The translations under genes were made by a program, and so were the position numbers. Source: Chryseobacterium indoltheticum (GTDB lineage Bacteria; Bacteroidota; Bacteroidia; Flavobacteriales; Weeksellaceae). Taken from it: a DNA stretch of 64,000 nt. Below are positions 5,035 through 46,389 of the stretch, piece after piece (position 1 is the first letter of the stretch; the number at the start of each line of letters is the position of its first letter). The notes below the pieces were generated by a model that saw only the letters and a program-made list of their open reading frames with translations, had not been told where the DNA came from and ran no database searches. Where the stretch lies: positions 930,001 through 994,000 of the forward strand of contig NZ_CP033929.1 of assembly GCF_003815915.1 (NCBI RefSeq), written 5' to 3'.

Positions 5035-5211
5035 TTATTTCTTTATTTTTTTAAGGACAGTAAGCGCCATAAATGAAATATAGCCAAAAAGTATACTTGC
5101 ATAAACAATATTTACAAGCGTATTCATTCTGTCGTCAGCTAAAGCAAAGAAGATATTATACACAGCGAAACCTGCAATAAGAATAGCGAAAATGATAAGG
5201 TGTGGCTTCAT
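5035..5211 (-). CDS. Small membrane protein, 58 residues
   Basis: This short reading frame starts with MKPHLIIFAILIAGFAVYN and ends with VLKKIKK. It has two hydrophobic segments (about residues 4-25 and 35-53) joined by a short loop with Asp-Asp-Arg, and a positively charged tail, so it should be a two-helix inner-membrane protein. It begins 9 bases after the stop of the GNAT-like gene on the same strand, so the two are probably co-transcribed. I do not recognise a family and infer no function. Confidence 0.7.
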   Translation of the reverse strand: MKPHLIIFAILIAGFAVYNIFFALADDRMNTLVNIVYASILFGYISFMALTVLKKIKK

Positions 5212-29793: not shown

Positions 29794-32700
29794 TTACCCC
29801 AAAACAATTCTCCCCTCGACTTCCTTCAGCAATCCTTTTCCGATCAATTCCTCTACAGAAAAATTCACTACAGAATCAATCTGAGAACCCACTTTCGCAA
29901 ACCCAAAAATTTTACAAACCGCACGAACCAATTCGTCCTTATTTAAACTCAAACTCGAATGCATCAATTCCATAATAGCAACCGAAATTTCTTCAGGTGC
30001 AATCTCGTCAATCAGTCTTTTTTCTATTGAATTGTCTCGATAAACAGCAAGATTTTGAGGCTGTAGATTTTCGCTCCAGTAAAATTTCTGATAATTTTCT
30101 GTGGATTGTAAATTCGGGATAGAATTTAAAGTTTCCAAAAGATAATTATTCATTTTTCCACCTGCTCTTGAAGTGTTCCAAAGCTTGAGAATCTTCCTGA
30201 ATAAAGCATTCTGGCTAATCGGTGATTCTGTATCAATAATTGTTTTGATTTGACTGAGAAGAACCTGTTTGTTTTCAAAAAGATAAATAGATTCTGAGTT
30301 TGCATTAATTTCTGGAATCAATTCTGCTGCAACATAAGAAATCATTTTTGAAGGTTTTTCAGTTTCCGAAACTTCACTCAGATAGACTTTCTCAGAAGTT
30401 TTTAGTTCAATTATTTCTTCTTGTTTCTCTTTTACCTCAGTCTTTATTTTTTCAATTTCAGCCTGAATTTTCTCAACGATTTTTTCTTTGTTTTTAATCC
30501 AGTCCAAAGTCCAGATTCTGAAAACATTCCAACCTAAACCTTTCAAAACATTAGGAACGAGCAATTCTCGGTCATTGGTTGTATTGATGTTAAAATAATT
30601 TTCACTGTCCAGCAAAATTGCCATTAAATATTCACTTTCATTTTCAGGATTGATCACCCCGATGTCAACTTTATATTCCGAAGTTCCGATGTTGGTTTTG
30701 ATTTTCAGGCCGCTTTCCTCCAAATGTTTCGCAATCGAATTCACCATCAGTTTCTGCTGATTTATATTGGAATTTGAATTGTGATAAACCAAGCCTTTTT
30801 CAGAAAAATTCAGGAAGTTTTTCAATCCTAAAACACCTTCCGAACTCGTTCTGTTCATATCGATCTGGTCGCCTTTTAATGAAGAAAACACTTTCATTTC
30901 GTAGCGTGCTCTTGTTACGGCAACATTCAGTCGTCTCCAACCTCCGTCGCGGTTGAGCGGACCGAAATTCATCGAAACTTTTCCGTCTTCATCAGGTCCG
31001 TAACCAATCGAGAACAGAATAATATCACGTTCATCACCTTGTACATTTTCAAGATTTTTAATGAAAATTGGTTCTTCAGAATTAATGGTAAACTCTTCCA
31101 AATTCGGATTTTCCTGAAATAATTTCTGCAGTAAATCTTCAATCAGACTTTGCTGAGTCTGGCTGAAAGTCACCACACCAATCGATTTTTTGTTTTTCCT
31201 TTCAAGATGATCTTTAATGTATTGAATTATTGCTTCCGCTTCATTTTTATTGGTTCTCGTTTTTCCTTTATCGTAAAATCCGTCAACAAATTCAAACGTT
31301 ACTTTCCGGTTCAGATCATCCGGAGATGGGAACGTGAGCAGTTTATTATCGTAAAAATGAGCGTTGGAGAAAGAAATCAAACTTTCATGCTTGCTTCGGT
31401 AATGTCTCAATAAATAATTTGAAGGAATCGAAAGCGCCAGACAATCATCCAAAATACTTTCCAGATCTTCGAGCTCAAAATTTTCTTCATCCACTTTTTG
31501 AGACGCAAAAAAACTGGTCGGTGGCATCTGTTTCGGGTCGCCTACAATGATTGCCTGTTTTGCCCTCGCCAAAGCACTTACCGCTTCAGAAGTCGGCAAC
31601 TGCGAAGCTTCATCGAAAATAACCAAGTCAAAATGCTCTTCATTTACATCAAAGTATTGCGCCACCGAAATCGGACTCATCAACATACACGGTTTCAGCC
31701 TCGGAATTAAAGTAGGAATTTGGTCAAATAGTTTTCTGATGGATAAACCTCGACCTTTGTTTCTGATGGCTTTCTGCAAAATTCCAATTTCTGAGCTTTG
31801 AACGGCTTCATGAGAAAAATTAGGAATTCTATCGCTCAGTTTCATCGTTAACTGATTTTTGGTCAGTTCTGTAAATTCTTTGTGAAGATTTTTATACTGC
31901 TGAATCTGAGATTCATAAATATTGGCATCAAAACCGTTCAAAGTTCCCGAACTGTAAATGGTTTTAATGAATAAATTCAGATGAATGATTTTTTCAAATT
32001 CGAGCTCAAGAGATTCTGTATCGAGCCAGCCTTTTTCAAGGAAATCGATGAACCAGTTTAGATTTAAATCTTGTGCTTTTTCTTTTAAACTGTTGAAATT
32101 AATCCAGTCTTCCAACTGATGAATATTCTGAACAATTGTCTGTAAATCAGCATCATTAGGAACTTCATGCACAAATTCTAAAAGCTGAGTTTCTGCATTG
32201 TCAAAATCTTTCAACGTTTCAACGACTTCAGAAATATTCTGATTGTTATTTTGTTTTGATGAAAAATATTTTAGCCATTCCGGAAAATTCGGAATGGAAA
32301 TTTTTTGAGCTAAATCCTTCGTACTTTCAATGGTTTTTAAATCTTTTTCAATCGCAGAAATATCAAACGAACTTCCGTTAAAATAAAGATTCGTCACCGA
32401 TGAAAGTGCATTGTAATGAAGATTGTTTAATTGATTTTTAAGCTGCTGATAATTTTCAAGCTTGTCAAAAAGTCCATCGATTTGCACATCAGATTCTATT
32501 CCTGATTTTGCGTAACCGTTTAGTTGCTGTTTTACTTTCCTTTGTTTAAACCATTTCGGAATAAACCACGTATGTTTTGCCTGATTCCACAACAGTTTTA
32601 ATGAAGCAAAATCGATATTTAAGATGGAAGAATTAAAATTGGAAGTGATTTGATTTTCAGTTTGTTGAAACTGCGTTTGCTGAGTCATCCAGTTTTTGAA

Positions 32701-35487
32701 TAAATTCAGCTGACCTTCATTGAAAACAATGTCAACCAAACCGGATTTCACCGGATTGTTTTTTAAATATTCAAGAATTTCTATGCTGTCAGAATTGGAA
32801 ACTTCATCCAATTGAAACTGGCTTTTTACCTGTTCAGCCGAATTTTTCTTTTCATTATATTGAGAAATTGCGGAAAGAATAAGATTTTTATTTTCAAACT
32901 GATGACTTGAAGTTTTTATCGGACGTAAAGCATGAAGTGATGGTTGCCCGACTTTCCGCACAATCGACGCAAACGGAATCAACCAGTCTTTCCACTGATT
33001 CCAGTTAAAAACATCAGCGCTTTCCAAAGGGAAATTGATGTGAAAACGCTCATCTGCATTTACATAATTGGTTTCCAAGAAGGCAATCGTATCAAATAAA
33101 CTCCAGCCAATCGGGAATTTTTTGTGCAGTTCATTTACATATTTCCCAAGTTCTTTTCTGCGTTCGTCGAGGCGTTTTGCTTCTTCGTGATAATCGGCAT
33201 TGATTTTATATTTTGGAACTTCAAGCGTTCTTTCAAACTGTTTCAGAACATCCGATTTTTTAGATTTATTGGAATGCAATTCGAGGCAGAATGCACCCAA
33301 GCCAATATTTTCCAATCGGTGATGAACCACATCTAAAGCGGCTTTTTTCGCAGCTACAAAGAGTACTTTTTTATCATTCGATAAAGCGTCGGCAATTATG
33401 TTAGTAATCGTCTGTGATTTTCCGGTTCCGGGAGGTCCGTGAAGAATAAAACTTTTATTGAGATTGGCATTCTTTACCGCATTCAACTGAGAATTGTCGG
33501 TCGAAATAGGCAAAACCAATTCAGAAGCGGAGATATTTTCTAAACTTTGAGCATCATTTTCCACGCTTTCCAAAGTTTCTGTCAATCGTCCGTCGATCAA
33601 ACTTTTTACAATCGAACTTTTCTGAATTTCTTCCGAATATTTTGAAATATCTTGCCAGAGAATCAATTTATTAAAGGAAAAAATTCCCAAAACCAATTGT
33701 TCCAAAACATCCCAACCTTCAAGATTGAGAACCGCATTTCTGATAATCGCCAAAACTTTCGGCACATCAACTCCCGATTCATCCATCGGAAGATTTTCGA
33801 GGCTGTTGATGTTGAGCTTGAATTCCTGTTTTAAATATTCAAGCAACGTAATGTTGATCATCGTTTCTTCTTCACGGCTTCGAAGTGTGAATTTAGAATT
33901 CACAGATTTTCTCGAAAGTTCAACAGGAACTAATAAAATCGGAGCCAGTCTTGGAACGTCTTTATTTTTTGGTTCAAACCATTTTAATAATCCAATTCCC
34001 AAATACAATGTACTTTTCCCGTTTTCTTCTTCTGCGAGTTTTGCACTTCTGTAAAGGTTGGTGAGGATATTATCGAGATCATCCTGATGATAATATGTTA
34101 AAAGTCGGTTGTATTTAAACTCATCATCCGCAAATTTAAAAAGCGGTTGCGACTGATGTAAAGGCTCGCCGTACAGATTATATTTTCTAAGAACCGCCTG
34201 ATTGTTGTCTGGATGAATCGTGAATGATTTTCCGTCGGCTAAACTATCTTCAAGTACATTTATTTTGGTGTCAATCAGCTGTAGCATACTTTTGGTAAAT
34301 CGCAGATTTAGAAGATTATTTCTGAGCGAAAGATCGAGCAGTTTTCTTTCCCAAACTTTTTGCTTGGTCAAATTTGAAAAGTCTGTCAGTTCAAGATCAT
34401 CATATTGAGTTCCCAAATCAAAATCCTGATCGAGTTCTGTTGAATTTTTATTGGAATCGAAATCGAGACTTTTAATCGTTTCATTTTTTAAAAGTGGGAG
34501 TGGAGAAATTCCCGCTGACCTTGCATTTTTGATGTCTAATGAAAGCAAAAATCTTGATGAATCCATCAACTGAGTTTCCGCAGAATTCATCGCATCTTTG
34601 AATGAAACTTGGGTTCCTCTGCACAAACTGGTCGATTCGATTAAAGCAATTTCTTTAATTCCTGAAGCAATTCTTTTAGAAATTGCAGCTTGATCAAAAG
34701 TAATTATTCCATCGAAACGCTGATCATCCAACCAAACTCCAACAAAAGCGTGACCGTCTGTTACAACGATAATCGGATTCAAATCAATTGCTTCAAGACA
34801 CGCTGCGAAAAGCAAAGAAATATCGATGCAGTTCCCGAATTTTGTTTCCAAAACCGTGTCCACAAGCCTGATTCTTTGTCCGTTCTTCTCAAAACTTGGA
34901 GGCATTGCGCTGTAAATCAATTCCAGATTCTGAATAGATTTATAAATTGCCGAAACCATCTGTAAAACCCTTTCTTTGCTTTTCTGTTGATAACCTTCAA
35001 AAGATGGAGTAAGTTTATTTCTCGCTAAAATATCAATCGCATCAGCTTTCAGTTTATATAAAAGATTATTATTTGAAAGAACATACGAAGCCAAAAGTTG
35101 CGGATACGATTGCAATCCACCAAAATAATCCATCGGCAGAACTTCAATATTGAAACCCTTCTCATAAATAGATTCTCCGTCTTTAAAAACCTGAATTTTG
35201 ATTTGATCTAAATCTTTTTCAGTCAGTCTTTTCAATAAATCATTATTAAAAATAAAGTTGAAAAGAGATATTTTATACAGTGAATTCTGCCTGATTTTAT
35301 CAATATATACATCATATTTTTCAAATAAACCCAAAGATGAGGTGATCTGAAGGTTTAAGTTTTCAAAATCTTCACTCACTTCTCTGAAGGAAATGCTTTG
35401 AAGAAAAGAATATTGGTTTAAACAAAAAGTATAATTGAAATAAGGGCTGTGCTGTATCTGTAAATCAAACGGAATAATCTGCTCCAT
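29794..35487 (-). CDS. Giant transglutaminase-like/DUF4011/SF1 helicase/nuclease-like protein
   Basis: This is a 1,897-residue cytoplasmic protein. Order: an N-terminal beta-rich region (1-130); a transglutaminase-like core with KFGNCIDISLLFAACLEA near 218 and DGHAFVGVWLDD near 245 (Cys, His, Asp in order); the DUF4011 signature RKLLDLSLRNNLLNL near 380; helicase motif I HGPPGTGKSQT near 683; long coiled helical insert; motif II FDEASQLP near 1288; motif III GDPKQMPPT; NVQGDERDIILFS and NVAVTRAR near 1525 (motifs V and VI). A C-terminal part near 1590-1665, with a restriction-endonuclease-like strand and FRIWTLDW, is like DUF3320/DUF559 neighbours. ATP-driven remodelling of DNA or RNA is expected. 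A defence role is possible but not shown. Confidence 0.88.
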   Translation of the reverse strand: MEQIIPFDLQIQHSPYFNYTFCLNQYSFLQSISFREVSEDFENLNLQITSSLGLFEKYDVYIDKIRQNSLYKISLFNFIFNNDLLKRLTEKDLDQIKIQVFKDGESIYEKGFNIEVLPMDYFGGLQSYPQLLASYVLSNNNLLYKLKADAIDILARNKLTPSFEGYQQKSKERVLQMVSAIYKSIQNLELIYSAMPPSFEKNGQRIRLVDTVLETKFGNCIDISLLFAACLEAIDLNPIIVVTDGHAFVGVWLDDQRFDGIITFDQAAISKRIASGIKEIALIESTSLCRGTQVSFKDAMNSAETQLMDSSRFLLSLDIKNARSAGISPLPLLKNETIKSLDFDSNKNSTELDQDFDLGTQYDDLELTDFSNLTKQKVWERKLLDLSLRNNLLNLRFTKSMLQLIDTKINVLEDSLADGKSFTIHPDNNQAVLRKYNLYGEPLHQSQPLFKFADDEFKYNRLLTYYHQDDLDNILTNLYRSAKLAEEENGKSTLYLGIGLLKWFEPKNKDVPRLAPILLVPVELSRKSVNSKFTLRSREEETMINITLLEYLKQEFKLNINSLENLPMDESGVDVPKVLAIIRNAVLNLEGWDVLEQLVLGIFSFNKLILWQDISKYSEEIQKSSIVKSLIDGRLTETLESVENDAQSLENISASELVLPISTDNSQLNAVKNANLNKSFILHGPPGTGKSQTITNIIADALSNDKKVLFVAAKKAALDVVHHRLENIGLGAFCLELHSNKSKKSDVLKQFERTLEVPKYKINADYHEEAKRLDERRKELGKYVNELHKKFPIGWSLFDTIAFLETNYVNADERFHINFPLESADVFNWNQWKDWLIPFASIVRKVGQPSLHALRPIKTSSHQFENKNLILSAISQYNEKKNSAEQVKSQFQLDEVSNSDSIEILEYLKNNPVKSGLVDIVFNEGQLNLFKNWMTQQTQFQQTENQITSNFNSSILNIDFASLKLLWNQAKHTWFIPKWFKQRKVKQQLNGYAKSGIESDVQIDGLFDKLENYQQLKNQLNNLHYNALSSVTNLYFNGSSFDISAIEKDLKTIESTKDLAQKISIPNFPEWLKYFSSKQNNNQNISEVVETLKDFDNAETQLLEFVHEVPNDADLQTIVQNIHQLEDWINFNSLKEKAQDLNLNWFIDFLEKGWLDTESLELEFEKIIHLNLFIKTIYSSGTLNGFDANIYESQIQQYKNLHKEFTELTKNQLTMKLSDRIPNFSHEAVQSSEIGILQKAIRNKGRGLSIRKLFDQIPTLIPRLKPCMLMSPISVAQYFDVNEEHFDLVIFDEASQLPTSEAVSALARAKQAIIVGDPKQMPPTSFFASQKVDEENFELEDLESILDDCLALSIPSNYLLRHYRSKHESLISFSNAHFYDNKLLTFPSPDDLNRKVTFEFVDGFYDKGKTRTNKNEAEAIIQYIKDHLERKNKKSIGVVTFSQTQQSLIEDLLQKLFQENPNLEEFTINSEEPIFIKNLENVQGDERDIILFSIGYGPDEDGKVSMNFGPLNRDGGWRRLNVAVTRARYEMKVFSSLKGDQIDMNRTSSEGVLGLKNFLNFSEKGLVYHNSNSNINQQKLMVNSIAKHLEESGLKIKTNIGTSEYKVDIGVINPENESEYLMAILLDSENYFNINTTNDRELLVPNVLKGLGWNVFRIWTLDWIKNKEKIVEKIQAEIEKIKTEVKEKQEEIIELKTSEKVYLSEVSETEKPSKMISYVAAELIPEINANSESIYLFENKQVLLSQIKTIIDTESPISQNALFRKILKLWNTSRAGGKMNNYLLETLNSIPNLQSTENYQKFYWSENLQPQNLAVYRDNSIEKRLIDEIAPEEISVAIMELMHSSLSLNKDELVRAVCKIFGFAKVGSQIDSVVNFSVEELIGKGLLKEVEGRIVLG

Positions 35488-36062: not shown

Positions 36063-36097
36063 AACGTAAATTTTATAATGCTAATTTCCGACATGAT

Positions 36098-36116
36098 TCT
36101 GGAAACAATTGGGAAT
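36098..36116 (-). promoter_or_regulatory. Predicted response-regulator site 1 (PepSY-like gene)
   Basis: The minus strand reads ATTCCCAATTGTTTCCAGA, two TTCC half-sites 11 bases apart. Sites 2 and 3 have the same sequence except for a few bases between the half-sites. The position matching the -7 element (nine bases downstream) reads GAAATTAG, a poor match, as would fit an activator-dependent promoter. Confidence 0.6.
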
Positions 36117-36125
36117 GATGTTTTT

Positions 36126-36222
36126 TTAACCATTAAATCAATTTAAGTTTTAAGATCGTTTAAGTGAAATAAATTTCTTAAGCTTCAACAGTAAAATATG
36201 TGAAGGTTTAAAAAATTTAAAG
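36126..36222. repeat. Dispersed intergenic repeat, family B copy 1
   Basis: This AT-rich stretch starts TTAACCATTAA and includes a GAAATAAATTTCTTAAG hairpin. It matches a second copy at 36783-36871, so the two copies flank the cupin gene. Confidence 0.5.
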
Positions 36223-36324
36223 GATATAATTATTTTTAAACTGATATCTAAATAATTTGCCACAAAATTAAATTCAGAGAAGAAATGAATATCTTTGAAC
36301 AGATTGTTTTAAATAATTAAAAAA

Positions 36325-36762
36325 ATGAAAAGATTATCCCAATTCACGATTATCATAATGATCATGTTATTCCAGCAAAAGATATACGCTCAGAAAACAG
36401 CTGCAGCAAATGAATCTTCTCAATATACGATTGAAAACTGCGTGAACGAATTTGATTTAACTAAAGCGACGAAAACAAAATCCGGTTATCAGTATTGGTT
36501 TGCCGATAAGAAATTCACTGAAGAAAACACGTTGAAGATGAGCATTGTAGAGCCTGGAAAATCTACGCATGCGCCACATCATCATCCTGAAGAAGAATTT
36601 TTTTATATTTTGGAAGGAAAAGCTTCTTTTTATCTTGATGGTAAAACTGTGGAAGTCGGAGCAAATACCAGTTTGTACTGTCCTCCAAATTCAGAGCATG
36701 GAATTAGCAATGCGGGAGATAAAGATTTGAAATATCTTGTGATTAAAAAGGATTTGCGGTAG
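36325..36762 (+). CDS. Secreted cupin-domain protein
   Basis: This 145-residue precursor has a signal peptide (to about residue 23, ending KIYAQ) and a single cupin domain. The metal-binding first motif is seen as HAPHHHPEEEFFYILEGKASFYL (with His-His and Glu), and the second as CPPNSEHGISNAGD. It should be periplasmic or surface-exposed. The ligand is unknown. It is the only rightward gene between the PepSY-like and HAEPLYID genes and lies between two copies of the same intergenic repeat. Confidence 0.85.
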   Translation: MKRLSQFTIIIMIMLFQQKIYAQKTAAANESSQYTIENCVNEFDLTKATKTKSGYQYWFADKKFTEENTLKMSIVEPGKSTHAPHHHPEEEFFYILEGKASFYLDGKTVEVGANTSLYCPPNSEHGISNAGDKDLKYLVIKKDLR

Positions 36763-37070
36763 GTTTTTTCTAAAGTCATTTTTTAAACCATTAAGATTAT
36801 TAAGTTGTTAAGTTGAGTTAAGAGAAATGAATTTCTTAAGGTAGATCTAAAATTTGCTTAAAAACTTTAATAATTCTTTATAGTTACATCTAATTTAATA
36901 TCTAAATTTTCTCTCGGAGATTAACAGACTTAAAATAAAAAATCTGTTTAATGTGCACAATTTGCGAGACCTGAAAATTTTATCTGAGATAAAATCCTTG
37001 CGCCGTATAGTTTGAGAGGCTTAAAACAAATTGCGTCTTTGCGAATAACAAACAAAAAATCCAATCAAAA
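36763..37070. other. Gene-free stretch with two repeat families
   Basis: About 300 bases without a gene. It holds family B copy 2 (36783-36871, four TTAAG units at the start) and family C copy 1 (36911-36969, a palindrome with AACAGA...TCTGTT and GGAGATT/TTTGCGAGA ends). A CGC-rich segment follows that contains 'TTGCGTCTTTGCG'. These look like inactive palindromic repeats at a gene boundary. Confidence 0.55.
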
Positions 37071-37880
37071 TCAAGGTTCATATACTAATCTAAAAAACGA
37101 AGACACATTTTCTTTGTCGTGCGAAACAGGAATTCCCGTTACGATTCCCACAGCAAAATGTGAATCGAGTTTTATTTTTACTTGCGGACGAAGCGTGACC
37201 GACATTTTTCCATGACTTATTTCTTTGTTGACTTCCACGCCTATAAAATGACCGGAATTGGGTAAAGAATACATCACGGAAGTATTGATTTGCCAATCAA
37301 CTGGAGTCGTGTTTTCTCCCAATTCATGCTGAATCATCGGATACGTGTAAACTAAAGTATGAATATTCGAACCCCATTTTTTCGCAGCCACAAAAAACGG
37401 ACTGTACACCAAACCTGTAATAAATTTTCCTTTGCCGTAATTTTTAAAATCTGTAAATTCTATAACTTGAGTATAGCCTAAAGCCATCGAAGTCTGAGAT
37501 TTTTCTGAAACAAAAAAAGTGTACTGCGCAGAAAGCCTGATTCCATCTAATCGGTTTCCGGGAATTTGTTCTTTGGTAGAATTATTTTTCTGACTGAAAA
37601 AAGAAAAATCGGTTTCCACTTCGAGACCTAATCGGTTAATCGGTGCAAATTCATACTCGGCTAAATATCCGCTTTCTCTATAATTTTTTCCACTTGAAAA
37701 ATCGGCACCCAAATTAAATTCCTTTTCACCTTTTCTTGCTCCGAGATCTCTTACCAAATCCTGAAAAATAGGCTCTGCGTGAGAAACTTTTACGGGTTTA
37801 GACTTGGTTTGTGCAAATGCTAAGAAGCCTCCTAAAATGCTTAAAATTCCTGCTAGTAAAATTTGTTTGGTTGTTTTCAT
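37071..37880 (-). CDS. HAEPLYID family protein
   Basis: This 269-residue exported protein starts at MKTTKQILLAGILSILGGF. The family motif appears as SHAEPIFQDLVRDLGARKGE near residue 35, followed by an alternating beta pattern to the end, consistent with an outer-membrane beta-barrel. The function is unknown. The ATG at 37898 is rejected because it adds six residues before a good signal peptide. The promoter carries regulator site 2, and a TAAATTTT -7 element follows that site by eight bases, placing it under the adjacent two-component system. Confidence 0.88.
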   Translation of the reverse strand: MKTTKQILLAGILSILGGFLAFAQTKSKPVKVSHAEPIFQDLVRDLGARKGEKEFNLGADFSSGKNYRESGYLAEYEFAPINRLGLEVETDFSFFSQKNNSTKEQIPGNRLDGIRLSAQYTFFVSEKSQTSMALGYTQVIEFTDFKNYGKGKFITGLVYSPFFVAAKKWGSNIHTLVYTYPMIQHELGENTTPVDWQINTSVMYSLPNSGHFIGVEVNKEISHGKMSVTLRPQVKIKLDSHFAVGIVTGIPVSHDKENVSSFFRLVYEP

Positions 37881-37907
37881 AGTACAAATCAACAGCACGA
37901 ATCGGGA

Positions 37908-37942
37908 AAAATTTAGGAAGAAATCTGGAAAGAAATGGGAAT
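37908..37942 (-). promoter_or_regulatory. Predicted response-regulator site 2 and -7 element (HAEPLYID gene)
   Basis: Site 2 at 37924-37942 reads ATTCCCATTTCTTTCCAGA on the minus strand. It is followed after eight bases by TAAATTTT at 37915-37908, close to TAnnTTTG. The operator thus sits where a -33 box would be. Confidence 0.65.
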
Positions 37943-37974
37943 TTTTTAAAAGTAAAAATATTGCAGATTATTTA

Positions 37975-38117
37975 AACGTAAAGATTTATAAAATAACTAA
38001 AATTTAAGAAAAGGTTGCGATGATTATGAAGCTTGAAAATAACACACGCTTAAATCAATTTTATTGATTATTCTTTGCTTCTTAAATTTTAAGAAAGAAA
38101 ATAAAATCTTTGCGTTA
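37975..38117. repeat. Dispersed intergenic palindromic repeat, family A copy 1
   Basis: Its ends are AACGTAAAGATTTA and TAAAATCTTTGCGTT, in inverted orientation, and its interior contains GAAGCTTGAAAA and TTATTGATTATTCTTTGCT. It aligns along its length with 51279-51426. It lies between the histidine kinase stop and the HAEPLYID start. Confidence 0.7.
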
Positions 38118-38131
38118 AAAAAATTAAAGCA

Positions 38132-39409
38132 TTAAAAATTCACTGTAAACTCGTGCATTCCGTTTTTGAAATCATAAGAAACCGAAAAATCATACAATTC
38201 AGCAATCGCTTGTACAATCGCTAATCCCAAACCGCTTCCTGACTGATGATGTTCAGATTTTTGGAATCTTGTAAATATTTTTTCGGGGTGTAAAGAATTT
38301 TCAATTCCTGTGTTTTTAACGATTAATTTTTTAGCATTAATCTGCACTTCCACCTTTCCGGATTTTATATTATGGAAAATTGCATTTCGCAGTAGATTGG
38401 AAACGATAATATTAATCAAAACAGCATCGGCTTTTACCAAAAGTTCGCTGTTTTCAGAAAAACTGATCTCAACTTCTTTAAATTCAGCAATATCCTGCAG
38501 ATCTTCTATGTTTTTTTCAACAATATCATTAACTTTAATTTCCTGATTATCAAAAAACTGTTTGTTTTCAATTTTTGTAAGCAAAAGAAGTGATTTGTTG
38601 AGACGAACTAATCTTTCGATAATTTCCATGATCTCAGCAATCTTTGCAGCCTGATTTTCTGTGAAATTTTCTTTTTCAATTAGCAGTTCAAGCTTACCAA
38701 TGGCAATCGCCAAGGGAGTTTGAAGTTCGTGTGAAGCGTTCCCAATAAATTCTTTCTGCTGCTCGTAGCTTTTTTCGCTGTATTGCAAAAGGGTAGTGAC
38801 GGCATCCTGTAAATCACTGAATTCTTTGGTTTTTGTCTCAACCTGCGGAAAGCTTTTGCTAATTCCTAAACGGTAATTTTTCAGCTCATTCAGAAGTTCA
38901 TAAAATGGCTTCCAAAGTCTTTGTAATACCCAATTATTAATGACCAAAATGCTGAAAATTAAAAGCACATACAACCCGGCGGCATCCCAAAGCAATTCTT
39001 TTACGAGATCATCTTCTTCAACCATATTATTGAAAATTTTCAGTTGATAAAAGCTTCCATTTTGTTCAAAAACTGTTGTCAAAATTCTTACAGGTTCTAG
39101 TTCCGGAGCTTCATCATCGGCATCCTGTGCATAGATTTCTGTGTCTTCATAAGTGTCTTTAAAACTGAGAGCTTTTTCTTTGCTTATTTTATTAACGGAA
39201 AAAAAACCTTCATCAAAAGTTTTCTGCTGTAAAATAGTGGGATCTTTTTCTGCCTTAAAAACGATTTGTCTTTTATAATTTTCGAGCTCTTCATCTACAC
39301 TTCCTTTGATTTCATCGAGCATATTAAAATAAAAAATCACTGACCATAAACTTACGATCAGCAAAAGATAGGTCATCAGATGAAGAATAGATTTGTTGAG
39401 GAGTTTCAT
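38132..39409 (-). CDS. Sensor histidine kinase
   Basis: This is the membrane kinase of a two-component pair, 425 residues. It has two membrane helices (about 10-30 and 145-165) around a periplasmic sensor of about 115 residues rich in acidic residues (DADDEAPELEPV). The dimerisation region has NASHELQTPLAIAIGKLE (phospho-His near 228) and the ATPase region has NLLRNAIFHN and GSGLGLAIVQAI. The G1 box is NTG rather than DxG, which is frequent in this subfamily. Its start overlaps the stop of the response-regulator gene by four bases. The acidic sensor loop could bind a cation; that is a guess. Confidence 0.93.
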   Translation of the reverse strand: MKLLNKSILHLMTYLLLIVSLWSVIFYFNMLDEIKGSVDEELENYKRQIVFKAEKDPTILQQKTFDEGFFSVNKISKEKALSFKDTYEDTEIYAQDADDEAPELEPVRILTTVFEQNGSFYQLKIFNNMVEEDDLVKELLWDAAGLYVLLIFSILVINNWVLQRLWKPFYELLNELKNYRLGISKSFPQVETKTKEFSDLQDAVTTLLQYSEKSYEQQKEFIGNASHELQTPLAIAIGKLELLIEKENFTENQAAKIAEIMEIIERLVRLNKSLLLLTKIENKQFFDNQEIKVNDIVEKNIEDLQDIAEFKEVEISFSENSELLVKADAVLINIIVSNLLRNAIFHNIKSGKVEVQINAKKLIVKNTGIENSLHPEKIFTRFQKSEHHQSGSGLGLAIVQAIAELYDFSVSYDFKNGMHEFTVNF

Positions 39410-40083
39410 TTTTCTATCAATTTGTAGCCGATTCCGTAGACAGCCTCGATTTCAATTTCGGCGTTCGATTGCTGTAGTTTTTTCCTTAAATTTTTTATCT
39501 GATAATAAATAAAATCAAAATTATCGGCCTGATCAATGTGATCTCCCCAAACATGCTCTGCTAAAGCTGTTTTGGTTACCAACCGTTTTTTATTAAGCAG
39601 AAAAAAATGAAGAATATCAAATTCTTTTCGGTTAAGGGTAATATTTTCCCCATCAACAATAAAAACTCTTTCGGTAAGATCTAGTTCGATATTGGCAACC
39701 TCAATACTGTTTTTGCCATCCTGATTTTTTCTGCGAAGAACTGCTTTTATTCTGGCGTTGAGCTCGGCATTATGAAAAGGTTTGGTTAAATAATCATCGG
39801 CTCCGAGTTCCAATCCTGTAAGTTTATCTTCAAGAGAATCTTTTGCAGAAATAATGATAACATTTTCAGATTTATCCATGTCTTTAAGCTGTTGAAGAAG
39901 TTGCAAACCGTTTCCACCAGGAAGCATAATATCCAGCAAAATACAGTCGTACGTGTACAAAGCAATCTTTTCACTTGCAGATTGATAATTTTCTGCAGTC
40001 TCAATAAGAAACTGCTCCTGAATCAAAGAATCATGAATAGATTTTAAAAGTTCTTTTTCGTCTTCTATAACAAGGATTTTCAT
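39406..40083 (-). CDS. OmpR-family response regulator
   Basis: This 225-residue transcription factor has a receiver domain (1-118) with acidic pair EDE, phospho-acceptor Asp in LLDIMLPGGNG near residue 51, Ser in IIISAKD and Lys in YLTKPFH. A winged-helix DNA-binding domain (about 128-225) follows, with NRKEFDILHFFLLNKK and VYGIGYKLIEK. OmpR-type regulators bind direct repeats about 10-11 bases apart. Such a repeat occurs in its own promoter and in those of the HAEPLYID and PepSY-like genes, so autoregulation is likely. Confidence 0.94.
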   Translation of the reverse strand: MKILVIEDEKELLKSIHDSLIQEQFLIETAENYQSASEKIALYTYDCILLDIMLPGGNGLQLLQQLKDMDKSENVIIISAKDSLEDKLTGLELGADDYLTKPFHNAELNARIKAVLRRKNQDGKNSIEVANIELDLTERVFIVDGENITLNRKEFDILHFFLLNKKRLVTKTALAEHVWGDHIDQADNFDFIYYQIKNLRKKLQQSNAEIEIEAVYGIGYKLIEK

Positions 40084-40087
40084 GTAG

Positions 40088-40123
40088 CAAATGTAGAGAA
40101 TGATTCTGGAAAGAGTTGGGAAT
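40088..40123 (-). promoter_or_regulatory. Predicted response-regulator site 3 and -7 element (regulator-kinase operon)
   Basis: Site 3 at 40105-40123 reads ATTCCCAACTCTTTCCAGA on the minus strand. After nine bases comes TACATTTG (40095-40088), a full match to TAnnTTTG. The site overlaps the -33 position. Confidence 0.7.
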
Positions 40124-40370: not shown

Positions 40371-40391
40371 AGAAAATAACATTTCATGTTT

Positions 40392-41570
40392 ATGAATAAA
40401 ATATCAATAACCCGAATGAGTTGTGCAATCGTTTGCATAGCTGCGAATTTTGTGAATGCACAGACATCAATTCAGGTTAAAAATACTCAGAATTTCGCTC
40501 GAAATGAAATAGTTTCTCTTCCAATTAACCAGTTGAAGGGGTTTTTAGGGAAAAATAAAGCAGAAGATTTTAGAATTAAAGATGCTCAAAATAATTATGT
40601 TACCATTCAGTGGATTGATAACGATAGAGACGGAAAAAATGATGAGGTTCTTTTTCAGGCAAAAGTAGATGCGAAAAAGACCAATTCTTATAAAATTATT
40701 GCTGATTCAAAAGTAGCAGTTCCTGAAAGTAAACTGACAACCTATTCAAGATTAGTTCCTGAAAGAGTTGACGACTACACTTGGGAAAATGATAAAATTG
40801 CGTTCAGAGTTTACGGTCCAAAAGGTCAGGCTGAAGCTTTAGCAGGTGTAAAAGGAAGTACACTTTCAAGCGGGGTTGATATTTGGTTTAAAAGAACCGA
40901 AAAATCTATAATTAACGAATGGTACAAAGGTTATTTGACTGATCCGATGTATTATCACAAAGATACGAGAGGAGAAGGCTACGATCCTTATCATGTTGGA
41001 GACAGCCGTGGTACGGGAGGAATTGGAATTTGGAAAGATGAAAAACTTCAGGTTTCTCAAAATTTTATAAGTTCTAAAACGATTGCCGAAGGTCCTTTGA
41101 GAACTGTTTTTGAATTAACTTACGCTCCGTGGAGTGAATTTGGAGTGAAAGAGACGAAAAGAATTTCTCTTGATCTGGGTTCCAATTTTTCTAAATTTGA
41201 ATCAAGTTTTGACACCGAAAAACCTGCTCCCAATTATACAATCGGAATTAGTCTTCATAAAAATGAAGGTGAATCAAAATTGAATGATAAAGACGGATAT
41301 TATCTTCACTGGGAAAAAATAGATGACGCATTTGTTGGTGAAGGAATTGTTGTGAATCCTAAAATTGTAGAAAAGTCGGTTGCTTTTAAATCTGAAACTC
41401 CAGATCAGAGTAATTTGCTGGTTATTACAAAGCCTCAGAAAAAATTGACTTATTATGCCGGGTTTGCATGGCAGAAAAGTGGACAGATTCAAACTCAAAA
41501 AGATTGGGAAAACATTTTGCAGAAGCAATCTAAAATTGTAGCCAATCCATTAATTATTACCGTTAAATAA
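40392..41570 (+). CDS. DUF4861 family protein (pectin locus copy 1)
   Basis: This secreted protein has 392 residues, starting at MNKISITRMSCAIVC with a signal peptide ending NAQT (the ATG two codons earlier is less likely). Its beta-rich body has WIDNDRDGKNDEVLFQ, DVWFK-like and WYKGYLTDPMYYHKDTRG segments typical of DUF4861. The function is unknown. A second copy (57432-58442) lies next to GH105, and this copy is 9 bases upstream of the PL10 lyase gene, so both copies are tied to pectin degradation. An oligouronide-acting role is an inference. Confidence 0.85.
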   Translation: MNKISITRMSCAIVCIAANFVNAQTSIQVKNTQNFARNEIVSLPINQLKGFLGKNKAEDFRIKDAQNNYVTIQWIDNDRDGKNDEVLFQAKVDAKKTNSYKIIADSKVAVPESKLTTYSRLVPERVDDYTWENDKIAFRVYGPKGQAEALAGVKGSTLSSGVDIWFKRTEKSIINEWYKGYLTDPMYYHKDTRGEGYDPYHVGDSRGTGGIGIWKDEKLQVSQNFISSKTIAEGPLRTVFELTYAPWSEFGVKETKRISLDLGSNFSKFESSFDTEKPAPNYTIGISLHKNEGESKLNDKDGYYLHWEKIDDAFVGEGIVVNPKIVEKSVAFKSETPDQSNLLVITKPQKKLTYYAGFAWQKSGQIQTQKDWENILQKQSKIVANPLIITVK

Positions 41571-41579
41571 AGTTGAATA

Positions 41580-42602
41580 ATGATTAAATTAAAACTTTCA
41601 GTTGCCGTATTTTGTCTGGCATTTTCAGGAGTTTCAGCACAGGTAAAAGATACTTTGGCGGAAAAAATGATGGTTTATCAGCTTCCAAACGGAGGTTGGG
41701 GAAAACATAATAGCGATAAAAAAAATGTAGATTATACTGCAAAAATAGATTCAAAATTATTGAAAATTATCAAAGCGAATGACAATGATCTCGCAACCAT
41801 AGATAACAATGCTACATCAAAGGAAATCAACAGTTTAATAAAAGCATTTCAATCTACAAAAAACCAGGCTTATCTGAAATCTGCCGAAAAAGGAATTCAA
41901 TATTTACTTTCGATGCAGTATGAAAATGGTGGGTTTCCACAGTATTTTCCCAATTCATCAATTTACAGAAAGCAGGTTACTTACAACGATAACGCAATGA
42001 TTAATGCTTTGACGGTTTTGTATAATGTGGCAGAAGAAAAAGAGGGCTTTGAAATGGTTGATTTTAAATTGAAAGAGAAATCTAAAGAGGCATTAAAAAA
42101 AGGGATTAAATGTATTTTAAAAACTCAGGTTATACAAAACGGTAAACTTTCGATTTGGGCAGATCAGTATGATGAAATTACATTAAAACCTGAAAAGGCA
42201 AGAGCTTTTGAGCCTATCTCTTTGGCAACCGGAGAATCGGTAACGATTGTAAAATTTCTTATGATGCAGCCAATCAATCCTGAAATTGAAAAATCAATAA
42301 AGTCTGCTGTAAAATGGTTTGATGAAAGTAAAATTGTTGGGTATACATATCAGGTTTCACGAGAAAACGGAAAAGCAATCCGTGCTTTAAGCAAAAAAGA
42401 AGGTTCGAATGTTTGGGCTAGATTTTATGATATCCCGACTAACAAGCCTATTTTTGGTGACCGTGACGGAAGCGTAAAATATAATTACGATGAGGTTTCT
42501 GAAGAACGCAGAATGGGCTATAGTTGGTATAACGAATCCGGAACTAAGTTGATTGAAAGTGATTTTCCGAAATGGTTAAAGAAAAATAAAATTTCCGAAT
42601 AA
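41580..42602 (+). CDS. Pectate lyase, PL10 family
   Basis: This lyase cleaves de-esterified homogalacturonan by beta-elimination. The 340-residue precursor has a signal peptide (to about residue 21, ending SAQ) and the alpha/alpha-toroid PL10 motifs: MMVYQLPNGGWGKH, DNNATSKEINSLIKAF, LSMQYENGGFPQYFPN, VTYNDNAMINAL and the C-terminal WARFYDIPTNKPIFGDRDG. No sorting domain is seen, so it is probably periplasmic. It is in one unit with the DUF4861 gene and is closed by a hairpin terminator. Confidence 0.93.
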   Translation: MIKLKLSVAVFCLAFSGVSAQVKDTLAEKMMVYQLPNGGWGKHNSDKKNVDYTAKIDSKLLKIIKANDNDLATIDNNATSKEINSLIKAFQSTKNQAYLKSAEKGIQYLLSMQYENGGFPQYFPNSSIYRKQVTYNDNAMINALTVLYNVAEEKEGFEMVDFKLKEKSKEALKKGIKCILKTQVIQNGKLSIWADQYDEITLKPEKARAFEPISLATGESVTIVKFLMMQPINPEIEKSIKSAVKWFDESKIVGYTYQVSRENGKAIRALSKKEGSNVWARFYDIPTNKPIFGDRDGSVKYNYDEVSEERRMGYSWYNESGTKLIESDFPKWLKKNKISE

Positions 42603-42610
42603 AAAGAATA

Positions 42611-42643
42611 AGCCTGATGTATGAAGACACATCAGGCTTTTTT
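42611..42643 (+). terminator. Terminator between the convergent PL10 and PL1 genes
   Basis: AGCCTGATGT pairs perfectly with ACATCAGGCT over an eight-base loop and is followed by T residues on the plus strand. It may also serve the minus strand. Confidence 0.88.
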
Positions 42644-42659
42644 AATTTAAAAATATCGT

Positions 42660-43775
42660 TTAGAAGCTTTCGCAGATATTTCCTGATAAAGTTGCTCCGG
42701 CATTGGCCGTTACATCAGCTTTCACATTATTTACATCAAGTTTTACAATAGAATATGGAGGCGTAAAGGCTGTTCCGCTTCCAGCAGTGTTACCGGTTAC
42801 ATTCGTAAAAGTACTTCCTGTCTGAGTAACCGCAGTAAATCCGCTCATCAAATTGATAGGTTCTTTTACATTTTCAAATACATTTCTTTCCACAAGAATA
42901 TTTGCCTGTACTCCGGCTGCGATACATTTGTTGCTTACCGAGCTGTTGAAATAGCTGTTCAGAATATGAATTTTACCAAATCTTACTCTTGGCATACGCT
43001 CTCTGCATCCCGGAGCCCACCAGCAACGTACAAATGTTACATTTAATTTTCCTGCATCAGCCGTTGCGCCGTCGCTTGAACCAATCAGATTAGAAAATCT
43101 GTGATCATCAGTTCCGCCTGAACCACCTGGTTTCGGAGCTTTTAAATAATGGAATTTTGTATAAGAAACAGTAATATAATCCGATTTGTTTTTAATGTCG
43201 AAATTACCGTCTACACCGTCTCTGAATTCACAATGGTCAATCCACACGTTTCGGCAGTCATCCAGAATTGCGTTATCCCAACCGTCTGTATCATAAGCTC
43301 CGGGACCTTCAAAAATCAGGTTTCTTACAACAATATTGTTACATCTTTTGATATTGATAATTCCTGATCCGTCTTTAGTCTGATTGGTTGATACAAGCTT
43401 TGCGCCGCTTGTTCCGTAGATGGTTTTTCCGGTCTGATCCTGAAGAGATAAACGAGTTGTGATGGTAATCGTTCCGGTAACCTTGATTACTTTAACGGCG
43501 GTGTTTTCAATAGCTGATTTTAACTGTGCATAAGTGGTTACGGTAGTTTCAGCAGCGGTTCCGCCTCCGGTAGTTCCTCCATTTTGAGAAGCCCATCCAG
43601 GAGCGACACAACTCGCTAAAGGAACGACGGTTTTTGCCGCAAATGCGTTTTCGATACTGTTTCCGTTGGGGTTTTCAGAGAATTCGGTTTTGATGTCGTC
43701 ATTTCCGCATCCGATAAATGCAAAAGCTGTACTGAGAGCAACTATAGCAATAGTTGCTTTGATGTTGATTTTCAT
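42660..43775 (-). CDS. Pectate lyase, PL1 family lipoprotein
   Basis: This is a surface or periplasmic lyase for homogalacturonan. The 371-residue precursor has a lipoprotein signal (cysteine in AFIGCGNDD at residue 23). Its right-handed beta-helix has VWIDHCEFRDGVDGNFDIKN, YITVSYTKFHY and the substrate-binding RERMPRVRFGKIHILNSYF (with Arg) in the usual PL1 order. It is separated from the GH95 gene by 139 bases containing a probable -7 element, so it may have its own promoter. Confidence 0.93.
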   Translation of the reverse strand: MKINIKATIAIVALSTAFAFIGCGNDDIKTEFSENPNGNSIENAFAAKTVVPLASCVAPGWASQNGGTTGGGTAAETTVTTYAQLKSAIENTAVKVIKVTGTITITTRLSLQDQTGKTIYGTSGAKLVSTNQTKDGSGIINIKRCNNIVVRNLIFEGPGAYDTDGWDNAILDDCRNVWIDHCEFRDGVDGNFDIKNKSDYITVSYTKFHYLKAPKPGGSGGTDDHRFSNLIGSSDGATADAGKLNVTFVRCWWAPGCRERMPRVRFGKIHILNSYFNSSVSNKCIAAGVQANILVERNVFENVKEPINLMSGFTAVTQTGSTFTNVTGNTAGSGTAFTPPYSIVKLDVNNVKADVTANAGATLSGNICESF

Positions 43776-43832
43776 GGTTAATAGTTTTGTTTTTATTTAG
43801 TTTAATAAAATTATGAATATTTATTAAATAAG

Positions 43833-43840
43833 CAAATTTA
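43833..43840 (-). promoter_or_regulatory. Possible -7 element of the PL1 gene
   Basis: The minus strand reads TAAATTTG, a TAnnTTTG match, 58 bases upstream of the ATG. No good -33 box is visible. Confidence 0.35.
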
Positions 43841-43914
43841 TTGAGTATAAATTATTAATTAAAACTATTTATTGAATATTAATTTATTTCAACCGATTGC
43901 GCTTTAGTGATTAA

Positions 43915-46389
43915 TTAATATGAGGTGAATTGATAAGTACCGTTTTTTTCTGTTTTAAAATCAAAAACCTGAGTTTCGGGAACTGCAATCGTTTTGAGAT
44001 GAGCTTTTTCAGAAACTAATGGCTTTTTAATAGGATTAATCTGATAATATTCATTGGTGTTTTCTCCTTTTGCTGAGGCGAAATTTGTTTTAGATTTTAA
44101 ATGTATATCCTTCGCCACTCTAATTCTCGCGTTTCCGCCTAAAGTAGATTTTACGATTAATTTTGTCAGCTTAGAATTTTTCCAATCCATATCTATTTCA
44201 AAACCGCCTCTTGCTTTTAACCCTTTTACAGAACCATTCGGTAAAGCATCTGGAAGTGCCGGTAAAATGTAAATATAGCCGTCATAACTTTGCAACAGCA
44301 TCTCGGCAATCCCTGAAGTACAGCCAAAATTTCCATCAATTTGAAATGGCGGATGCGCATCCAGTAAATTAGGATATGTTCCTCCCGACTGACCTTTATT
44401 TTCCATCGGAGCCGGAGTTAATTGATCTGAAATAAGTTTAAAAGCTCTGTTTCCATCGAGCAATCTTGCCCACCAATTTACTTTCCAGCCCATCGACCAG
44501 CCTGTAGATTTGTCACCACGATAAATCATAGAATTTTTTGCAGCTTCCGTCAAATCTGGATTTCTGAACGGTGAAATTTGTCCTGAAGGAAACAATCCAT
44601 ACAAATGCGAAATATGTCGGTGCTTATCATCAGTTTTATCCATATCTGTAAGCCATTCTTGTAGCTGAGCGTGCTGCCCGATCTGCATCGGCGGAAGTTT
44701 GCTTAAAGCATTTTTTACTTCATTGGAAAGATTCTGATCTTGATTTAAAATTTTTGAAGCATTGATAAAATTATTAAAAACATCAAAAACCAACTGGTTA
44801 TCCATCGTTGTTCCCGCTGTGATACTTACATTTTTGAAGTATTTATTTTCTGGAGACATAGAAGGCGAAACCACCAGATATTTTTTGGAAGGATCTTGTT
44901 GAAGAACATCTAAGTAAAACAAAGCACAACCTTTCAAAGCTTCGTAGTTTTTCTTTAAAAATTCTTTATCTCCGGTGTATAAGTAATGATTCCAGACATG
45001 CTGAGTTAGCCATGCGCCACCCATTGGCCACATTCCGTAGAAACCGCCGTCAACAATTCCTGTAATTCGCCATAGATCTGTGTTGTGATGCATGTTCCAG
45101 CCTCTTGCATGATACATCTCTTTAGCAGATTCCTGTCCGGTAATCGATAAATCCTGAATCATATCAAACAAAGGCTCGTGCATTTCGCTGAGGTTGGTAT
45201 TTTCTGCTGGCCAATAATTCATTTCGGTATTAATATTGACCGTGTATTTACTGTCCCAGGAAGGATTTAGCTGATAATTCCAGATTCCCTGAAGATTTGC
45301 AGGTTGAGTTCCTTGCTGCGAAGATGAAATCAGAAGATAACGCCCGAATTGAAAATATAACGCCACCAAATCGGGGTCTTGTGAATTTCCAAATTCCTTA
45401 ATTCTGACATCGGTTGTTTTCTGTGCCTGTTTGCTTGTTCCGAAATCTAAATTGACACGCTTAAAATATTTCTGGTATTTTTCAATGTGTGCCTTTAATT
45501 CAGCATCATATTTTTTGTTTAAAGCCGATTTTAAATATTCTGAAACTCTTGCATCAGGATTTCCCGAAAGGTCATTGTATTTTTTAAAATTGGTTGCAAT
45601 AGAAACATAAATCACCACTTCATCTGCTCCTGAAATATTCAGTTGATCTTTTGTTGAGGTTAATTTTCCACCTTTTAAAACGGGAATCGTAACCGTTTTG
45701 AAATTAATCTTTCCTATTTTATTATCAACAGAACCGCTAGTTCCGCTAATGACCAGTTGATTTTTCTCTGTGAAAATAGAATTGATTTTGTGTGGAGTAG
45801 AAGCATTTAAAGTAAAATTCAGACTTCCTTTATTACTGGAAGATAATTTGATCATAATTACATTATCGGCAAAAGATGAGAAGATTTCTCGCTTGAAAGT
45901 CACGCCATTTACCTGATAAGAAACCGTGCTGATTGCTTTTTCAATATCTAAAGTCCTAATGTAATTTTTAAAATTTTCATGGCCTTTAAAATCAAGAAAC
46001 AAATCGCCCATCGTCTGATACGGCATTCCGTAATTTAAGTCTTTGGGAGCCGTTCTCGGATAAGTTGTATTGGTTAAATCCTGTGCTTTTTCAAACTGAC
46101 CTTCATTGATCAATCTTCTTACTTTCTGAATACTGTCAAACGTGTTTTTAGGAACATTATTCCCCGGTTCACCAGCCCAAATTGTCTCCTCATTCAACTG
46201 AAGATGTTCCTGAGCTGCACCACCAAAAACCATTGCTCCAAGCTTTCCGTTTCCGATAGGTAAAGCTTCGTTCCAGTTTTCTGCAGGTCTATTGTAGGTT
46301 AACTTTAAATTTTGCTGTGCAAAAGTTGAGAAGGAAATCAATGTTCCGCAAGCCAGTAAAAAGATTTTATGTTGAATGATTTTTAGCAT
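43915..46389 (-). CDS. Glycoside hydrolase family 95
   Basis: GH95 enzymes remove alpha-1,2-linked L-fucose or alpha-L-galactose from polysaccharide side chains. The 824-residue precursor has a signal peptide (ending STFAQQ) and an N-terminal beta domain with RPAENWNEALPIGNGKLGAM and LNEETIWAGEPGN. The alpha/alpha catalytic part has NLQGIWN, NTEMNYWPAENTNLSEMHEP, HRHISHLYGLFPSGQ and DAHPPFQIDGNFG; acidic residues of the family active site fall in these. In a pectin locus L-galactose or fucose of rhamnogalacturonan side chains is the likely target, but that is inference. Confidence 0.92.
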   Translation of the reverse strand: MLKIIQHKIFLLACGTLISFSTFAQQNLKLTYNRPAENWNEALPIGNGKLGAMVFGGAAQEHLQLNEETIWAGEPGNNVPKNTFDSIQKVRRLINEGQFEKAQDLTNTTYPRTAPKDLNYGMPYQTMGDLFLDFKGHENFKNYIRTLDIEKAISTVSYQVNGVTFKREIFSSFADNVIMIKLSSSNKGSLNFTLNASTPHKINSIFTEKNQLVISGTSGSVDNKIGKINFKTVTIPVLKGGKLTSTKDQLNISGADEVVIYVSIATNFKKYNDLSGNPDARVSEYLKSALNKKYDAELKAHIEKYQKYFKRVNLDFGTSKQAQKTTDVRIKEFGNSQDPDLVALYFQFGRYLLISSSQQGTQPANLQGIWNYQLNPSWDSKYTVNINTEMNYWPAENTNLSEMHEPLFDMIQDLSITGQESAKEMYHARGWNMHHNTDLWRITGIVDGGFYGMWPMGGAWLTQHVWNHYLYTGDKEFLKKNYEALKGCALFYLDVLQQDPSKKYLVVSPSMSPENKYFKNVSITAGTTMDNQLVFDVFNNFINASKILNQDQNLSNEVKNALSKLPPMQIGQHAQLQEWLTDMDKTDDKHRHISHLYGLFPSGQISPFRNPDLTEAAKNSMIYRGDKSTGWSMGWKVNWWARLLDGNRAFKLISDQLTPAPMENKGQSGGTYPNLLDAHPPFQIDGNFGCTSGIAEMLLQSYDGYIYILPALPDALPNGSVKGLKARGGFEIDMDWKNSKLTKLIVKSTLGGNARIRVAKDIHLKSKTNFASAKGENTNEYYQINPIKKPLVSEKAHLKTIAVPETQVFDFKTEKNGTYQFTSY

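Follow-up and report, generated by a model that had tools for sequence, protein, structure and literature searches.

A putative operator shared by an OmpR-type two-component system, a HAEPLYID gene and a PepSY-like gene in Chryseobacterium indoltheticum

The gene set and its promoters

The window analysed here is a stretch of 64,000 nucleotides from Chryseobacterium indoltheticum (contig NZ_CP033929.1, positions 930,001 to 994,000). On its minus strand lie, in this order, the genes for an OmpR-family response regulator, a sensor histidine kinase, a HAEPLYID family protein and, past a cupin gene on the other strand, a PepSY-like protein (Table 1). A first-pass annotation, made from the DNA letters and their open reading frames (ORFs), had noticed nearly the same 19 bases in three minus-strand promoters of this set (36098-36116, 37924-37942 and 40105-40123), with TTCC half-sites 11 bases apart, and had predicted a self-regulated system that controls two envelope proteins. 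All three 19-mers were found where it had placed them, and the same pitch was read at each. The Pfam domains of the regulator agree with its view that one of the three units encodes an OmpR-type regulator.

The pattern ATTCCCANNNNTTTCCAGA, with 15 fixed positions, has three exact matches in the genome of 4,253,895 bases. All of them lie within this 4-kb stretch, and they precede the regulator/kinase pair, the HAEPLYID gene and the PepSY-like gene, while the reversed pattern, used as a control, has no exact match in the same genome. The word is therefore not scattered at random, a possibility that the first-pass annotation had itself raised, and a chance repeat is ruled out. The three one-mismatch sites of the genome are all inside ORFs, one of them of 107 amino acids. 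At up to three mismatches there are 361 matches versus 109 for the reversed control, so that loose matching is uninformative and the control is imperfect. We looked at 36 sites among the matches listed of these 361 (L001-L036: the three exact sites, the three with one mismatch and 30 with two or three). Besides the window promoters, only two places reach 16 bits on the weight matrix described below; both fall within open frames (of 138 and of 296 codons), and neither has a -7 box. A large regulon of close matches in this genome was rejected, since the one-mismatch sites are in ORFs and L001-L036 gave no further promoter.

The first-pass annotation had also claimed a TAnnTTTG-like -7 element that follows the word after 8 or 9 bases in two of the promoters. 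The element is present, with a correction to the spacing: the TTTG part of the box stands at a single distance, 16 bases after a TTCC, in all three promoters. In the HAEPLYID promoter this TTCC belongs to a second pair, CTTCCTAAATTTTTCCCGA, which had been overlooked. It lies directly downstream of the first pair and gives an array of four TTCC at an 11-base pitch, and the box TTGATTTG stands 38 bases after the last TTCC of the first pair. This four-half-site array is kept in nine relatives (L037-L041 and L043-L046). A box for the PepSY-like gene one turn further down was considered and dropped, because the conserved spacing places it at GAAATTAG. For Flavobacterium psychrophilum, positions -12 to -5 are reported for the TAnnTTTG box, and 5.5% of the mRNAs are leaderless (PMC9723704). 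If this box position is applied here, the nearest operator pair would span roughly -40 to -22, and the mRNAs of the regulator and of HAEPLYID are predicted to have the A of the ATG as their first base. Given the small share in F. psychrophilum, such leaderless mRNAs would be unusual.

In the periplasmic part of the kinase, EPVR is invariant across 16 aligned sequences, and an acidic stretch of the EEDD type is conserved near the membrane. The HAEPLYID protein is predicted to be a 12-stranded outer-membrane beta barrel. Its AlphaFold2 model (mean predicted local distance difference test score, pLDDT, 73.1; predicted template modelling score, pTM, 0.70; residues 14-47 unreliable) is a 12-stranded barrel, and its best structural matches, at about 10% identity, are the outer-membrane channels FapF, KdgM, NanC and COG4313. 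A literature search on HAEPLYID found no paper. The PepSY-like protein has a periplasmic relative of solved structure, 3u1w (E 1.4e-9), and is probably exported, judging by eye from its signal-like N terminus.

Table 1. Positions of the genes, putative operators and -7 boxes in the window
Feature	Position	Strand	Details
Operator, regulator/kinase operon	40105..40123	-	TTCC 40122-40119 and 40111-40108
-7 box TACATTTG, regulator	40088..40095	-	40095-40088; 4 bases before ATG
OmpR-family response regulator, 225 amino acids	39406..40083	-	Response_reg and Trans_reg_C (Pfam)
Sensor histidine kinase, 425 amino acids	38132..39409	-	HELQT box with His227; overlaps the regulator gene by 4 bases
Distal operator pair, HAEPLYID	37924..37942	-	TTCC 37941-37938 and 37930-37927
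Proximal operator pair CTTCCTAAATTTTTCCCGA, HAEPLYID	37902..37920	-	TTCC 37919-37916 and 37908-37905
-7 box TTGATTTG, HAEPLYID	37885..37892	-	37892-37885; 4 bases before ATG; spaced from the second pair
HAEPLYID family protein, 269 amino acids	37071..37880	-	NF041634, 371.8 bits; signal-like N terminus by eye
Operator, PepSY-like gene	36098..36116	-	TTCC 36115-36112 and 36104-36101
-7-like box GAAATTAG, PepSY-like gene	36081..36088	-	36088-36081; 16-base spacing; predicted 14-nucleotide 5' untranslated region
PepSY-like protein, 148 amino acids	35616..36062	-	PF11396, formerly DUF2874 (Pfam); relative of 3u1w

Two neighbours of the set are of separate note. Directly downstream of the PepSY-like gene, a minus-strand gene (29794-35487) encodes a protein of 1897 amino acids that matches the anti-phage protein ProA (NF058533, 2084 bits) and contains DUF4011, helicase and MTES_1575 nuclease domains. 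Beside the regulator, a small sugar-use cluster (40386-46389) begins with a DUF4861/BT3233-family polysaccharide protein (NF058564); the genes after it presumably encode pectate lyases and a glycoside hydrolase, which they resemble.

Conservation of the operator in relatives

The best 80 of 129 loci from a search of genomes for the regulator were kept and, with the window, form a first set of 81 loci. The strict form TTCC-N7-TTCC occurs in 46 of these 81 regulator promoters, the window included. A weight matrix was built on the 37 distinct operators among them, and PepSY-like and HAEPLYID promoters took no part in its training. The matrix gives 198 matches in the 81 loci, with overlapping pairs of one array counted separately, versus 9 in the reversed sequences. 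Most of the matches (165/198) are near labelled starts: 69 at PepSY-like, 66 at regulator and 30 at HAEPLYID genes. Among the 33 elsewhere, 17 were inspected. For two of them no downstream gene was found, and two more stand before PepSY-like genes that the assignment had missed. The rest precede other genes, ten of which adjoin the regulator or kinase gene and belong by sequence look to one propeller family.

The fixed distance to the -7 box is also conserved. A TTTG-like box stands at exactly 16 bases in 66 of the 68 genes that are labelled PepSY-like and have a site. When these are pooled with 65 regulator and 17 HAEPLYID cases, 124 of the 150 have the box at 15-17 bases, versus a mean of 27.7 and a maximum of 41 after shuffling. 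Among the first-set regulator promoters with a site, 29 of 61 have TTTG, four bases and then the start codon. When a complete unit is defined as an operator of at least 14 bits with a -7 box at 15-17 bases, anywhere in the stretch, it is found in 77 of the 81 loci, training loci included (162 units versus 1 in reversed sequence).

Within the genus, 60 genomes contain 51 matches to the pattern, 18 exact and 33 with one mismatch, and the control has no exact match. Four of the 33 fall within the gene set. Another 21 are scattered and have a locus, and all of these are in ORFs (8 further sites have no locus); a large regulon of close matches was rejected for the genus as well. The exact matches are confined to 8 of the 60 genomes. 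Seven of these carry a kinase of the window's type (494-505 bits) and hold 17 exact sites, all at regulator, HAEPLYID or PepSY-like promoters; some of these sites were read directly, and others were placed by identity with loci of the set or beside the kinase (G018). The word is thus kept at the same promoters in relatives, where the first-pass annotation had considered that it might be absent, and paralogues of the system are without it. Of the 60 genomes, 29 have a related kinase type (456-485 bits), and the window's type is found in none of these 29. At one locus (L152) the order is PepSY-like gene, regulator, kinase, with a variant operator, TTTTCCTAATTCTTTCCTAAATT.

The eighth genome with an exact match (G011) is without a window-type kinase. 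In its locus L155, on contig C9, the operator (site near 5205), the -7 box and the first codons, ATGAAAATC, remain, while all four genes of the set, from the regulator to the PepSY-like gene, are absent together, and the remnant sits between the neighbours that flank the gene set elsewhere. By these remains, it is a deletion relic of the gene set.

Beyond the genus, a kinase profile was searched over 395 phylum and 395 class genomes. In the phylum, 16 genomes score at least 381 bits and the next 325; the class also gave intermediate scores. An order-level search around G098 found the kinase in none of 98 genomes and was uninformative. The held-out set consists of 40 plus 36 stretches, less L203 (on the same contig as L079) and L215 (without this kind of regulator), which leaves 74. 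Their regulators have glutamine (Gln) in 28 cases and histidine (His) in 46 at one position of the recognition helix. Of the 28 Gln-type loci, 24 have the complete unit, versus none of the 46 His-type loci (41 units versus 1 in reversed sequence). The window regulator, with the helix YYQIKNLRKK, carries Gln, and so do the regulators of all 77 first-set and 24 held-out loci with a complete unit. Because Gln/His and the operator both follow the clade, this table shows that the operator belongs to the clade, not that Gln reads it. A PepSY-like ORF is present in 25 of the 28 Gln-type stretches. PepSY-like genes also occur in 19 of the 46 His-type stretches, without the operator, which rules out the word as a general signature of PepSY proteins with two-component systems.

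A kinase tree gave the same picture. It has 125 rows, predates the last 36 stretches and omits L092 and L096, which have no labelled kinase. By a quick method, 95 orthologues are set apart from the other rows by a branch with a Shimodaira-Hasegawa-like approximate likelihood ratio test (SH-aLRT) value of 98.6. A site of at least 16 bits near a regulator, PepSY-like or HAEPLYID start is found in 85 of the 95 orthologues versus 0 of the 30 paralogues. Two held-out loci, L280 and L265, repeat the arrangement of the window with operators at all three units; HAEPLYID in L265 was recognised by eye from its motif. The exact pattern has 12 sites in 10 of the 395 phylum genomes and none in the control: three of C. 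indoltheticum itself, two at regulator promoters (G061 and G166), one at a DUF2490 gene (G391) and six inside ORFs.

The genes downstream of the operator mostly encode the regulator, an outer-membrane barrel or a PepSY-like protein. Elsewhere, the gene that follows the PepSY-like one is DUF2490 in 9 loci and Porin_O_P in 6, names assigned by cluster from one scanned representative each. The DUF2490 gene of G391 is on a different contig from the regulator and has its own operator and -7 spacing, and in L264 a gene that by eye resembles DUF2490 has an operator of 15.2 bits. Operators also precede other genes, in L074 (7993), L076 (129 and 5386), L091-L108 (between 6760 and 8254) and L112 (4623). 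By sequence look these are DedA-like, phosphate cotransporter-like and PAP2-like genes, SdiA-regulated propellers and a porin; the scans covered cluster representatives (propeller, VTT protein and porin), none being these very genes.

The proposed circuit and its alternatives

We think it very likely that the 19-base word is the operator of this regulator, and that the regulator activates a circuit of three transcripts in which the PepSY-like protein gives feedback. The regulator encoded beside the first operator is its probable binder. A dimer of the regulator would occupy both TTCC half-sites, which are separated by one helical turn and lie between about -40 and -22, and the bound regulator would replace the -33 contact and activate a housekeeping promoter through the -7 box 16 bases after the nearest TTCC. 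The regulator/kinase transcript would thereby be under positive autoregulation, with a predicted leaderless mRNA as often in the clade. The transcript of the HAEPLYID barrel would be controlled from two stacked dimer sites, and that of the periplasmic PepSY-like protein would be the third. The PepSY-like protein would most likely return to the periplasmic domain of the kinase as a feedback ligand. This role is proposed because of its frequent place in the locus, its shared control and the analogy to DbfQ of Vibrio cholerae, which binds the sensor domain of the kinase DbfS with a dissociation constant of 30 nM in a cascade that shows positive feedback (PMC12714742). The module would then combine a sensor and its regulator with a modulator in the periplasm and a barrel, and the comparative evidence supports the self-regulated control of two envelope proteins predicted in the first-pass annotation. 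The same switch at the same promoter position in distant relatives points to an old, self-controlled envelope-sensing circuit. Our best guess for the signal, by analogy, is a cue from the envelope or one related to haem or iron. The latter is possible because the kinase HaeS of Porphyromonas gingivalis binds haemin (PMC5706477) and because, in Bacteroides thetaiotaomicron, the PepSY-like BT_0922-0923 increase when iron is low (PMC10434189).

Several observations weigh against this proposal. Four of the 81 first-set loci lack a complete unit, and so do four held-out Gln-type loci (L213, L222, which is a Gln-type paralogue, L272 and L282). In a subgroup, L091-L116, the sites at the regulator promoter are degenerate or relocated. 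The box GAAATTAG of the window PepSY-like promoter is an imperfect -7 box. In 10 of the 17 HAEPLYID cases, the pair with the highest score lacks a -7 box at the expected distance, because promoters of the window's type have their box 16 bases after the second pair; this second-pair spacing was checked in the window, and by eye in relatives. The regulator promoters without the four-base gap have five bases (9/61), other gaps (9/61) or no box by the rule used (14/61). Gln marks the regulators that appear to use this site, that is, the clade, and a part of Gln in specificity is not separable from clade; a Fisher value for the Gln/His table is unusable because the loci are related.

By layout, the closest described kinase is that of HaeSR of P. 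gingivalis (PG0719-PG0720, with the lipoprotein PG0717), a likeness drawn from published descriptions. The system may even be a straight HaeSR orthologue that controls haem uptake, which would be compatible with the proposed circuit, and which we consider rather unlikely. HaeS has 427 amino acids, His226 and a periplasmic region of 104 residues (PMC5706477), and the kinase of the window, also adjoining an OmpR-type regulator, has nearly the same length and His position, with an HExxT box, HELQT, near that His. A PF11396 protein is encoded close to the two-component pair in both systems (PMC3764172, PMC5706477). HaeR is self-regulated (PMC3764172), as is predicted here from the operator in the regulator's own promoter. 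However, HaeR sites are reported before 57 genes, 17 of them for transport and many for haem/iron transport (PMC3764172), whereas the exact operators of C. indoltheticum are at the system itself, the barrel and the PepSY-like protein. None of these three exact sites is at a TonB receptor, a haem transporter or another haem/iron transport gene, which leaves room for weaker sites. No HaeR binding motif was found in the accessible parts of PMC3764172 or PMC8757827, the latter of which reports a footprint by position (the PG0720 footprint spans -365 to -314 of PG0106), and a literature search, with most subscription papers outside its reach, found no paper on such an operator.

Repression is an improbable alternative, in which the regulator bound at the operator blocks polymerase at -33. 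The site does overlap the place of the -33 box, and HaeR is reported as both activator and repressor (PMC3764172). However, repression does not need the fixed spacing between site and -7 box, and positive feedback is reported for the DbfRS cascade (PMC12714742). It is still less probable that the word is the site of a different regulator of the cell, which would also govern this two-component system. The binder is proposed here from sequence comparison, and the relic in G011 has an operator without this regulator; against this, the presence of the operator tracks the phylogeny and the recognition helix of this regulator, and the C. indoltheticum genome has no exact copy at other genes. Least probable is that the three genes are merely of one promoter class, with the word as an extended element of the core promoter or of a sigma factor: its place at about -40 to -22, in the -33 place and at a fixed distance to the -7 box, would suit such an element, but it would be expected at many unrelated promoters, whereas the exact word occurs three times in the genome, the unit is absent from all 46 held-out His-type loci and HAEPLYID has two stacked pairs in phase.

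Related systems and significance

OmpR/PhoB-type regulators use tandem direct-repeat operators with half-sites 11 bases apart near -35/-33. The operator proposed here is likewise a direct repeat at a 10-11 base pitch near -35; it differs in its TTCC half-sites and in its coupling to the Bacteroidota -7 box.

In DbfQRS of V. cholerae, a small periplasmic PepSY protein adjoins a kinase and a regulator (PMC12714742). The window likewise has a small PepSY-like protein within four genes of the kinase and regulator. DbfQ belongs to Pfam PepSY and dbfQ lies upstream of the pair, whereas the gene in the window belongs to PF11396 and lies downstream. The accessible text names no outer-membrane barrel in the DbfQRS module, while the window has HAEPLYID, and its survey names Proteobacteria, Terrabacteria and Fusobacteria (PMC12714742).

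Response regulators of the PorX kind have a PglZ domain. The kinase of the window scores 502.8 bits against the model NF052314 for PorY of P. gingivalis (cut-off 350), but its partner is OmpR-type, with only Response_reg and Trans_reg_C in Pfam, and this wrong type of regulator rules out identity with PorXY. The label "PorY" of NF052314 looks over-broad, and a paralogous kinase also passes its cut-off. This second kinase of C. indoltheticum (L151, G000:C1:1652563-1653837; 413 bits) is beside an OmpR-type regulator, and neither the operator nor a PepSY-like gene was found in its stretch.

A broader reading can be offered tentatively, and as a whole it may well prove wrong. TTCC-N7-TTCC followed after 16 bases by TTTG would be the founding operator of a Bacteroidota regulator clade and would define a four-part envelope circuit: a leaderless self-activated regulator, its kinase, a PepSY-like protein that sets the kinase by contact, and an interchangeable barrel as output (HAEPLYID, DUF2490 or Porin_O_P). 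HaeSR would be a derived form whose regulon has grown to haem uptake.

In conclusion, comparison between loci supports a clade-specific operator, a fixed promoter geometry and a small envelope regulon, which go beyond the first-pass annotation. A regulator clade with a likeness to HaeSR is thereby given a concrete predicted binding site; the targets of HaeSR were mapped in P. gingivalis without a motif found in the accessible parts of those reports. Two families of unclear role, the PF11396 PepSY-like proteins and HAEPLYID, would be tied to one sensor. The signature of operator, 16 bases and -7 box can be used to annotate the system and to find its targets. Since the operator is confined to one clade beside related regulators that are without it, it may provide a clean case for a change of specificity in OmpR-type regulators.

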